Below are positions 32,204 to 34,766 of a DNA stretch of 64,000 bases, one piece after another. Each line of letters begins with the position of its first letter. Position 1 is the first letter of the stretch. A model generated the notes under the pieces. That model was not told the origin of the DNA. It did no database searches and saw only the letters and a program-made list of their open reading frames with translations. The position numbers were made by a program, and so were the translations under genes. The stretch is from an uncultured Pelagibacteraceae bacterium. Lineage in GTDB: Bacteria > Pseudomonadota > Alphaproteobacteria > Pelagibacterales > Pelagibacteraceae. The stretch lies in NCBI GenBank assembly GCA_902522525.1, contig CABYVU010000001.1, positions 140,376-204,375 of the forward strand, written 5' to 3'.

Positions 32204-32887
32204 TTAATTTTTCTTATATTTTTGCCATAAGTCTGGTCTTCGGTCGCGTGTTATAGCCTCAGATTGGGATAAACGCCAGTCTTTAATTTTGGCGTGATCA
32301 CCTGAAATCAACACATTTGGGACCTTTTTTTCCTCCCAAACTTGAGGTTTTGTGAATTGCGGATATTCAAGAAGGCCATTCTCAAAACTCTCATCTTTTG
32401 AGGAATTAATATTACCTAGAATTCCTGGAATAAATCTTAGAATAGAGTCTGTTACAACAAATGCAGCAACTTCACCCCCTGACAATATAAAGTCACCAAT
32501 GCTAATCTCTTCAATATCCCTACTTTCTAGTATTCTTTCATCTACTCCTTCGAAATGACCACAAATTAAATTGATTGTTTTTTCATTTGAAAACTCTCTT
32601 GCAAGTTTAGAATTAAAAACTTTTCCTCTTGGACTTAAATAAAGGGTTTTTTCTTTAGTCTTGATATTTGCGTCTAATGAATTTGCCAAAACATCTGCTT
32701 TCATAATCATTCCATTTCCGCCACCATAAGGAGTGTCGTCAACAGTTTTATGTTTATCTAATGCATAATCTCTTATGTTTACTGTTTCTAAATCCCATTC
32801 TTTTCCTTTTGACTTTCCAAAAAGACCTTTACTCAAATAACCTGGAAAATATTCAGGATACAACGTAAATACTCTAGACAAAAACAT
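32204..32887 (-). CDS. trmD: tRNA (guanine-N1-)-methyltransferase
   Basis: TrmD methylates G37 of tRNAs with S-adenosylmethionine, preventing +1 frameshifts. I start it at the ATG at 32887, giving 227 aa beginning [19 protein letters not shown]. The trefoil-knot cofactor site is visible as [30 protein letters not shown] and [16 protein letters not shown]. The open frame runs further upstream to 33058, but that part is the repeat tail of rpsP read in another frame and is Lys/Leu-rich nonsense. The chosen start leaves 4 nt after the rpsP stop. The order rpsP-trmD-rplS is conserved in many bacteria, here without rimM between rpsP and trmD. Confidence 0.95.
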
Positions 32888-32891
32888 TATT

Positions 32892-33293
32892 CTATTTAGC
32901 TTCTTCCTTCGGAGCTTCTGTTTTAGCTTCTTCCTTCGGAGCTTCTGTTTTAGGAGCATCTGCTTTAGCTTCGCCACCCTCATCAGTTTTCTTTCTATCT
33001 TTTTTTGGAATTGCTTTTTGAGGATTATTACCTTTTGCTGGCATAGGCATAATCTCATTTTCTCCTAATAATCTTGCAACTCTAGTTGTTGGTTGTGCAC
33101 CTTGACCCAGCCAATACTTAACTCTCTCAACATCTAATCCCATTCTTTCTTTTTTTTCTTTTGGAATTAGAGGATTAAAAAAACCTAGTTTTTCTATAAA
33201 CCTTCCATCTCTTGGAAATCTGCTATCAGCAACCACTATCTTATATACTGGTCTCTTCTTAGTTCCTCCCATTGATAAACGCATCTTTAACAT
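32892..33293 (-). CDS. rpsP: 30S ribosomal protein S16 with repetitive charged tail
   Basis: S16 is an assembly protein of the 30S body. Residues 1-82 are ordinary S16 ([23 protein letters not shown] is its location, then [10 protein letters not shown] and [10 protein letters not shown]). The protein is 133 aa against a usual 80-90, because of a Lys/Ala/Glu/Pro-rich extension with [20 protein letters not shown] followed by two EAPKEEAK units at residues 117-133. Charged S16 tails occur in other alphaproteobacteria. The sharing of the same unit with L19 is unusual. It lies 12 nt after ffh. Confidence 0.96.
32895..32945 (-). repeat. Two 27-bp-period repeats encoding EAPKEEAK(T)
   Basis: Two nearly identical units close the rpsP reading frame. 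The encoded unit matches the rplS repeat in six of nine positions exactly (EAPKEE), and the DNA is also similar, with cttcttcctt-type codons in place of cttcttcttt. This suggests exchange between the two genes or a shared origin. Confidence 0.85.
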
Positions 33294-33305: not shown

Positions 33306-34664
33306 TTATTTTAATTGATTAAAAAGTTCTGGTGGTATGCCTTTATCCATCATCCCTTTTGTATTCCCTTTAGACATTTTTTTCATCATTTCTGACATCA
33401 TCTTAAATTGCTTAAGCAATTTATTGATAGTGGCTACGTCTGTTCCTGAGCCATTAGCAATTCTTTTTTTTCTAGAACCATCTATAATCTTTGGGTTTTC
33501 ACGCTCTTTTTTAGTCATAGATAATATTACCGCCTCGTTTTGAGTAATTATTTTTTCATCCACTCCAGCTTGATCCATTTGAGATTTAACTTTTGAAACA
33601 CCAGGCAAAAAAGACATTATACCTTCAATACCACCCATTTTTTTCATTTGTCTTAGCTGAGTAAGATAATCCTCTAACGAGAACTGACCTTTCTTTAATT
33701 TTTCCTCTGTTTTTTTTAATTTTTCTTCATCTAGATCTTCTGCAGCCTTTTCAACAAGGGAAACAATATCTCCCATACCTAAAATTCTATTGGCAATTCT
33801 GTCTGGGTGAAAAACTTCAAAGTTTTCTACCTTTTCACCAACTCCTAAAAATTTAATTGGAACATCTGCAACATATTTCATACTTAATGCTGCTCCACCT
33901 CTTCCATCACCATCTGATCTTGTAAGAATAATACCTGTCAGATTTACTGTGCTTTTAAATTCTTTAGCTACATTGGCAGCTACTTGACCAGTCAAAGAAT
34001 CTGCGACAAGAATTGTTTCTGACGGGTTTATAATACTTTCAATTTGTTTAATCTCACTCATCATTTGTAAATCAATCTGAGTTCTTCCAGCTGTATCAAA
34101 TAGAATTACATCTGCTCCATTAAGATTAGCAGCACTAATCGCCCTTCTACAAATATCTGCAGGAAGTTGATCTTTGATGACTGGAAGCGTTATTATATTA
34201 TTTTGCTCACCCAAAAGTCTTAGTTGCTCTTGTGCAGCAGGTCTGTAAACGTCTAGACTAGCCATCATCACTTTTTTCTTTTTATTAATCTCTAAAAATC
34301 TTGCAAGTTTAGCTGTCGTAGTTGTTTTTCCAGATCCCTGTAATCCAACTAACATTATTGGAACAGGTGGAACTGCATTTAATTCAATATCAGAATTTTT
34401 ATCCCCCAGGAAAGAAATTAACTCATCGTTAACAACTTTAACTACCATCTGTCCAGGTGAAGTTGATCTGATAATTTCCTGACCTAGAGCTTTAGGTTTA
34501 ACTCTATTTATAAATTCTTTTACAACTTCTAAAGATACATCCGCCTCTAAAAGAGCAAGCCTTATTTCTCTTAAACCTTCATCTACTTGCTTTTCATCAA
34601 GTGAAGGGGCTTTTTTTAATGAAGAAAATATTTCTTCAAATTTATTTGTTAAGTTTTCAAACAT
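33306..34664 (-). CDS. ffh: Signal recognition particle protein Ffh
   Basis: Ffh binds signal peptides and SRP RNA and docks with FtsY at the membrane. I start it at the ATG at 34664 (MFENLTNKFEEIFSSLK), giving 452 aa. The N-domain helix bundle is followed by the G domain with GLQGSGKTTTTAKLA, DTAGRTQ and TRSDGDGRGGAAL, and the methionine-rich M domain from about 310 (LPGVSKVKSQMDQ, then MMSEMMKKMSKG). The G4 element has TRSD where TKLD is usual: Arg replaces Lys. The frame is open upstream to 34745, but that stretch is the structured leader RNA. It diverges from dapF-ftsY. Confidence 0.96.
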   Translation of the reverse strand: MFENLTNKFEEIFSSLKKAPSLDEKQVDEGLREIRLALLEADVSLEVVKEFINRVKPKALGQEIIRSTSPGQMVVKVVNDELISFLGDKNSDIELNAVPPVPIMLVGLQGSGKTTTTAKLARFLEINKKKKVMMASLDVYRPAAQEQLRLLGEQNNIITLPVIKDQLPADICRRAISAANLNGADVILFDTAGRTQIDLQMMSEIKQIESIINPSETILVADSLTGQVAANVAKEFKSTVNLTGIILTRSDGDGRGGAALSMKYVADVPIKFLGVGEKVENFEVFHPDRIANRILGMGDIVSLVEKAAEDLDEEKLKKTEEKLKKGQFSLEDYLTQLRQMKKMGGIEGIMSFLPGVSKVKSQMDQAGVDEKIITQNEAVILSMTKKERENPKIIDGSRKKRIANGSGTDVATINKLLKQFKMMSEMMKKMSKGNTKGMMDKGIPPELFNQLK

Positions 34665-34766
34665 AATTCCATCCAGCAAGTATCGCACCAGTGGGCGAAC
34701 TCTCGCTGACTGGTGTCGATCTCTTTGTTGCCAAAGACACCGCAAATTGCTGTATTTTGCGGAAAC
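34665..34766 (-). ncRNA. ffh leader RNA, structured cis-regulatory candidate
   Basis: The 100 bases before the ffh ATG are far more GC-rich than the flanks and fold into three hairpins on the ffh strand. Hairpin 1 (34740-34762) has a 7-bp stem CCGCAAA/TTTGCGG. Hairpin 2 (34722-34737) has a perfect 6-bp stem UCUUUG/CAAAGA closed by a GCAA (GNRA) tetraloop. Hairpin 3 (34682-34720) pairs CACCAGT with ACTGGTG, extended by AUCG/CGAU below and GCGA/UCGC above. The hairpin 1 loop contains CAGCAA, complementary to UUGCUG at 34674-34679, which is 10-15 nt before the start codon, so a pseudoknot could control ribosome access. From memory, a published P. ubique survey reported a candidate cis-regulatory RNA upstream of ffh. 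This is probably that motif. Confidence 0.85.

Follow-up and report, generated by a model that had tools for sequence, protein, structure and literature searches.

The window, the whole 64,000-nucleotide stretch of DNA that was analysed, comes from an uncultured Pelagibacteraceae bacterium and carries on its minus strand the gene order ffh-rpsP-trmD-rplS-leuC-leuD. The first gene, ffh (33306-34664, start codon 34664-34662), matches the SRP54, SRP_SPB and SRP54_N domains. Twelve nucleotides past it lies rpsP, the gene for ribosomal protein S16 (32892-33293; Ribosomal_S16, 96.7 bits), which is followed by trmD (32204-32920; tRNA_m1G_MT) and by rplS, the gene for ribosomal protein L19 (31606-32202; Ribosomal_L19). 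Both S16 and L19 of this operon have a repetitive Lys/Glu/Ala/Pro tail with EAPKEE-type repeats. The 102 bases ahead of the ffh start hold three hairpins and a short box, all of which, like ffh, are read from the minus strand; the sequence-only reading, which had proposed a structured three-hairpin leader here, gave no strand. H1 (34762-34740) is formed by CCGCAAA and UUUGCGG around the 9-nt loop AUACAGCAA. H2 (34737-34722) is the perfect 6-bp stem closed by GCAA that had been described, UCUUUG-GCAA-CAAAGA. H3 (34720-34682) is a bulged hairpin with a CA/CC internal loop, and directly 3' of it stands a UGCUGG box (34678-34673). The leader from 34768 to 34665 folds with -37.8 kcal/mol (z -4.04), and none of 200 dinucleotide shuffles folds as well. 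When a longer stretch is folded, the minimum free energy (MFE) structure differs and H2 is not formed.

H3 corresponds to a published RNA. Positions 34730-34678 match the Rfam family RF01793 (ffh) with 58.4 bits against a gathering threshold of 35, the sole Rfam match above gathering in the window, and the match lies ahead of ffh; by score and by location the element is thus a member of this family. The ffh motif was described as a single bulged hairpin in Rhodobacterales, Sphingomonadales and Rhizobiales (Meyer et al., 2009; PMC2704228), and the remark in the sequence-only reading that a P. ubique ffh leader was already on record is borne out by passages of the same paper and by the Rfam entry. 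What is already known is therefore H3, at the same site ahead of ffh. The Rfam model comprises one hairpin of 52 positions, and H1, H2 and the UGYUG box of SAR11 lie outside it.

We found RF01793 in 251 of 297 genomes of the window's family. In all 130 SAR11 loci that were read (L002-L131, of which L031 and L111 are the same place) the start ATGTTTGA comes 3' of the motif. These loci yielded 117 distinct leaders, of which 114 were aligned after removal of three containing N. The covariation check of the three stems, which had been suggested along with the original proposal, shows that the leader is structured beyond chance. H2 is paired in 99.9% of cells and both sides change together in all six of its pairs, H1 is paired in 98.6% of cells with both-side changes in two of seven pairs, and H3 is paired in 96.6% of cells, with four of its 15 pairs covarying and seven never varying. 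For the entered structure, which includes the six pairs of the proposed pseudoknot discussed below, there are 203 double-change cells compared with a shuffle mean of 62 and 26-70 in slid controls. Since H1 and H2 covary, they are real parts of the SAR11 leader. The CA/CC internal loop of H3 is nearly invariant in the 114 leaders, and a UGYUG box is present in 95 of them.

The box is also one arm of a pseudoknot proposed from the window alone. CAGCAA in the H1 loop (34752-34747, minus strand) and UUGCUG (34679-34674) are indeed exact 6-bp complements at the positions given, and their pairing would hide the ribosome site and thus act as an on/off switch. A CAGCA loop occurs in 26 of the 114 SAR11 leaders, 24 of which have UGCUG within 14 nt past H3, and the pairs L010/L062 and L077/L080, both inside one genus, show compensatory-looking changes. 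Several scores over the whole set favour the pairing as well: 52.4% of cells are paired against a shuffle mean of 48.6% (0 of 500 as high; slid 34.7-43.2%), the covariation score is 0.134 against 0.100 (0 of 500; slid 0.057-0.128), there are 42 double-change cells against 30.6 (4 of 500; slid 21-42), runs with a leader's own loop average 3.70 against 3.35 with swapped loops (0 of 500), and the own-loop energy is -3.34 against -1.61 for letter-shuffled loops, but all of these scores count related sequences many times, so that kinship alone can beat the shuffles. A pairing present in only 52.4% of cells is hardly a conserved one, and the number of loop pairs with double changes is 3, compared with a shuffle mean of 3.6 (488 of 500). 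Because at least L073, L079 and L113 are misaligned at the loop, duplex-energy swap tests that do not depend on alignment columns were made. Over all sequences the difference between own and swapped loops is within noise (-3.34 versus -3.14 ± 0.15), as it is for unique loops (-2.43 versus -2.29 ± 0.20, 68 of 300 as good; in a second test -2.59 versus -2.49 ± 0.19, 291 of 1000 as good). Swapping loops and boxes gave equally good values in 228 of 1000 cases within genera, 399 of 1000 over all and 268 of 1000 between genera, and p 0.42 over 15 groups. Moreover, L113 breaks the pairing, and the L062 loop could also pair with UGCUG through G-U. Neither coevolution nor compensatory change across relatives thus backs the loop pairing, which is not a feature of the family and is at most a possibility at clade level; as a switch it seems to us very improbable. 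Among the 88 SAR11 leaders that lack a CAGCA loop, 33 nevertheless retain UGCUG, and this, together with the 95 leaders that have UGYUG, suggests that the box is conserved for its own sake.

A different use of the box emerges from the MFE fold, although the folding program cannot predict pseudoknots. In this fold CCGUUU (34768-34763), just 5' of H1 on the minus strand, pairs with GGAUGG (34674-34669) in a possible closing helix, P0, that encloses the three hairpins in a junction and masks the likely Shine-Dalgarno (SD) sequence. When own and swapped P0 segments are compared, 1 of 1000 and 0 of 1000 swaps are as good over all SAR11 and 0 of 1000 between genera, as opposed to 204 of 1000 within genera; over 15 groups p is 0.03, with one group (g7) far out. 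These results are suggestive of P0 as a rival use of the box.

Outside the window's family, RF01793 was detected in 75 of 289 genomes drawn from the class, in 59 of them above the cut-off. From the 69 class matches that belong neither to SAR11 nor to the family f50 treated below we fetched 40 loci, with 9 kb of downstream DNA in 39 of them and 4.8 kb in L362. Downstream of the motif, 39 of the 40 have Ffh, S16, RimM and TrmD in this order and on its strand, the distance from Ffh to S16 reaching 3.7 kb in L357; L19 was detected in 37, and in L355 and L356 it does not lie within the fetched stretch. In the remaining locus, L376, only a partial Ffh match of 410 bases and no other sought operon gene was found within 9 kb 3' of the motif, reflecting either a broken gene or an assembly fault. 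The first gene in the examined loci outside f50 is ffh. It often begins tens of bases past the box in other alphaproteobacteria, whereas in SAR11 and f50 the box is close to the start codon. The sequence YTGG occurs within 22 nt 3' of H3 in 40 of 59 loci outside SAR11 (25.3 expected) and in 7 of 12 f50 leaders (3.0 expected). For these 59 loci the 60 nt 5' of H3 have a mean fold z of -0.88, with 11 below -2, whereas a control region farther upstream gives a mean of +0.16 with 2 of 59 below -2. The count leaves out L141 and L173 (contig ends) as well as L138, L155 and L157 (near duplicates), and keeps the f50 loci L154, L169 and L175 apart, as they are represented through L325-L337. In f50 the excess is weaker (mean z -0.76, 1 of 13 below -2). 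Folding scores of two individual f50 leaders are z -1.54 and -2.47; no clear H2 is seen in the latter. The homology of H1 and H2 outside SAR11 is therefore positional, backed by location and a modest excess in folding rather than proven. By eye, two variants stood out. L142 and L145 have a long, GC-rich and nearly perfect inverted repeat between motif and ffh, which is possibly an attenuator, and in L135 and L140 the box after H3 lies inside a fourth hairpin, CAAAACC..GGUUUUG.

The most informative loci are those of f50, a single alphaproteobacterial family represented by 18 genomes (G345, G469, G564, G583-G597) of three genera, with sizes of 0.9-1.4 Mb and 55-97% completeness. RF01793 is present in 14 of the 18 genomes, as a single motif in each, and in 14 of 14 it lies directly 5' of rpsP. 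The open reading frame after the motif begins with MAVKIRLARGG or MSVKIRLARGG and is ribosomal protein S16, the tail of which resembles the repetitive Lys/Glu/Ala/Pro tail of the S16 in the window. The S16 domain PF00886 was likewise found in 14 of the 18 genomes, and the four without an rpsP match are the same four that lack the motif; every rpsP detected in f50 thus has the motif. The leaders keep H3 (51.1 bits in L350) and a box of the UGYUG or GUUG type. PF00448, which covers the SRP54-type GTPases Ffh and FtsY, is above the cut-off in none of the 18 genomes, where a single match below the cut-off (20.5 bits, 41 positions) was seen. The same search is positive in 14 of 14 controls as well as in G000 and G003, and above the cut-off in 267 of 279 genomes of the class. 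SRP RNA was found in none of the 18 f50 genomes by a less sensitive search, which misses 3 of the 14 controls and places G000 above and G003 below its cut-off (E 7.9e-6). The whole SRP pathway thus seems to be lost in f50. In SAR11, dapF and ftsY lie on one side of the leader and ffh ahead of rpsP on the other. In all eight f50 stretches that were fetched, dapF and rpsP are arranged back to back with the leader between them, no match to FtsY or Ffh was found in these eight dapF neighbourhoods, and the five stretches that do not end there continue through (rimM)-trmD-rplS-leuC-leuD. The f50 gene order is the SAR11 order minus ffh; leader and operon both stayed. This placement ahead of rpsP does not figure in the passages of Meyer et al. 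(2009) that were consulted. f50 is one lineage and counts as one evolutionary event.

These findings bear on the idea, raised in the sequence-only reading, that surplus Ffh binds an SRP-RNA-like leader and represses its own translation. The idea is a natural one, since, both in the window and at all 40 other loci, the motif has an Ffh match (partial in one case) on its 3' side, and 86 of the 114 SAR11 leaders carry a GNRA loop on H2. The H2 loops of other alphaproteobacteria, however, are of other types, so a conserved GNRA loop as a handle for Ffh did not hold up. Ffh binds SRP RNA at a CAGG/AGCA internal loop that lies beneath a GNRA tetraloop. Compared by eye with the SAR11 SRP RNA (CCAGG..GAAA..AGCAAGG), H3 resembles domain IV (RF00169, 4.5S RNA) in being a hairpin with CAG 5' of an internal loop, and GNRA loops do occur in the leader. 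Where SRP RNA has the CAGG/AGCA loop, H3 has CA/CC, and it lacks the AGCA 3' strand, while the GNRA-like hairpin of the leader is a separate stem without an internal loop. H3 as a mimic of SRP RNA domain IV was therefore rejected. Likewise, in a passage of Meyer et al. (2009; PMC2704228) the motif is said to be without resemblance to the part of 4.5S RNA that Ffh binds. Most importantly, f50 keeps the motif 5' of rpsP in 14 of 18 genomes in which Ffh, FtsY and SRP RNA are not detectable. Autoregulation by Ffh is, in our estimate, very unlikely and the least probable of the explanations weighed here.

A sensor of Ffh should not outlive Ffh, but a sensor of a ribosomal protein should, and the f50 pattern fits a ribosomal-protein leader. 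A conserved RNA structure 5' of an operon with ribosomal protein genes is what such leaders look like, and this is what is found here. We therefore favour, with about even confidence, the reading that this element forms the 5' leader of the ffh-rpsP-trmD-rplS operon and acts as an autogenous ribosomal-protein leader. It would comprise H1, H2 and H3, with the UGYUGG box left single-stranded between H3 and the nearby start codon. One of the operon's ribosomal proteins in its free form, S16 as first candidate and L19 as second, would bind the H3 core around the CA/CC internal loop and lower expression of the first gene and hence of the whole operon, perhaps at the level of translation rather than of transcription or mRNA decay. 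Ffh would be a passenger, co-regulated with the supply of ribosomes. S16 is placed first because rpsP adjoins the leader in f50 and is present in 39 of the 40 other loci; S16, RimM, TrmD and L19 would nevertheless all be conceivable ligands that the present data do not separate. Since ffh in other alphaproteobacteria often starts tens of bases past the box, simple occlusion of the SD sequence would not be a general mechanism. Some, not all, ribosomal-protein leaders are reported to resemble the rRNA site of their protein (passage in PMC7247131). A search with short words, limited to a fetched stretch around the SAR11 16S rRNA gene, gave no sign of it at that level: the 6-mers UCAGCG (from H3) and GUCAGC are absent, and UCAGC and GCCCA are present. 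Leaders of the kind proposed do exist, as an S16 leader has been proposed in Flavobacteria (Eckert et al., 2020; PMC7247131). As far as the relevant passages show, it is likewise a structured RNA that heads an rpsP operon and for which autogenous control was proposed, but it belongs to another phylum, ffh usually leads the operon here, and the likeness noted here is one of operon position. Nowhere in that text is ffh mentioned, and titles, beginnings of abstracts and selected passages of the literature yielded no statement that the ffh motif is an rpsP leader.

Two further explanations do without such a protein switch at the operon. The first, a ligand-free structure at the 5' end that determines mRNA stability or the basal level of translation, is possible but rather unlikely in our view. 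H1 may form the very 5' end of the mRNA, judging from a TTGACA upstream at which a promoter scan found no full promoter-like pair, and the sequences of H1 and H2 vary while their stems persist, as expected for a stability element. The seven invariant pairs of H3 and its nearly invariant CA/CC loop are, however, more than stability needs. The second is a processed or stand-alone small RNA that works in trans. Rfam classes RF01793 as sRNA, the ffh leader RNA is listed among the expressed RNAs of Bartonella bacilliformis in a passage of PMC7717549, and Meyer et al. (2009; PMC2704228) cite metatranscriptomic detection in the part that concerns the motif. Against this, the operon position is constant in the examined loci, and no terminator-like site was found between 34600 and 34900 of the window, which makes a trans-acting RNA very improbable.

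Taken further, the ribosomal-protein reading leads to a more specific proposal, which we put forward tentatively: the ffh motif may form the centre of a leader for S16 (or L19) in alphaproteobacteria, approximately 105 nt long and made up of three hairpins plus a UGYUGG box. Such a leader would tie the supply of SRP protein to ribosome assembly, and it would have outlived the SRP in a lineage from which Ffh, FtsY and SRP RNA disappeared through clean excision of their genes. If this is right, a single RNA sensor serves both the SRP protein and ribosomal proteins in many alphaproteobacteria, SAR11 among them, and a named but so far unexplained RNA family gains a testable function. The f50 lineage is a natural knock-out that removes the natural first guess, Ffh. 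The apparent loss of SRP in genomes of 0.9-1.4 Mb moreover bears on the dispensability of co-translational targeting. In the parts available, mainly titles and beginnings of abstracts, we found no report of natural SRP loss in bacteria like that of f50, and the published work on SRP deletion concerns E. coli and Streptococcus mutans.

PF00448 is absent or weak also in G364 and G483 (f69), G371, G425, G444 and G517, and gives only weak matches in G313, G350, G548 (E ~8e-4) and G526 (E 2.7e-5); the two f69 genomes are 99-100% complete and 0.9 Mb in size. Searches beyond cellular alphaproteobacterial chromosomes gave no motif match in phages and five pattern matches in viral contigs, none of which reaches the Rfam cut-off. 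Among six pattern matches in named genomes that were scanned with Rfam, L226 (Pseudomonas), L250 (Mycolicibacterium), L295 and L215 are below the ffh cut-off, and L209 and L275 reach it. RF01793 is tabulated as sRNA in an intergenic region of plasmid b of Mesorhizobium huakuii (table in PMC5596092). Finally, motif-like DNA was seen on seven large plasmid records of Paracoccus and related bacteria, for example NZ_CP141053.1 and NZ_CP035287.1.
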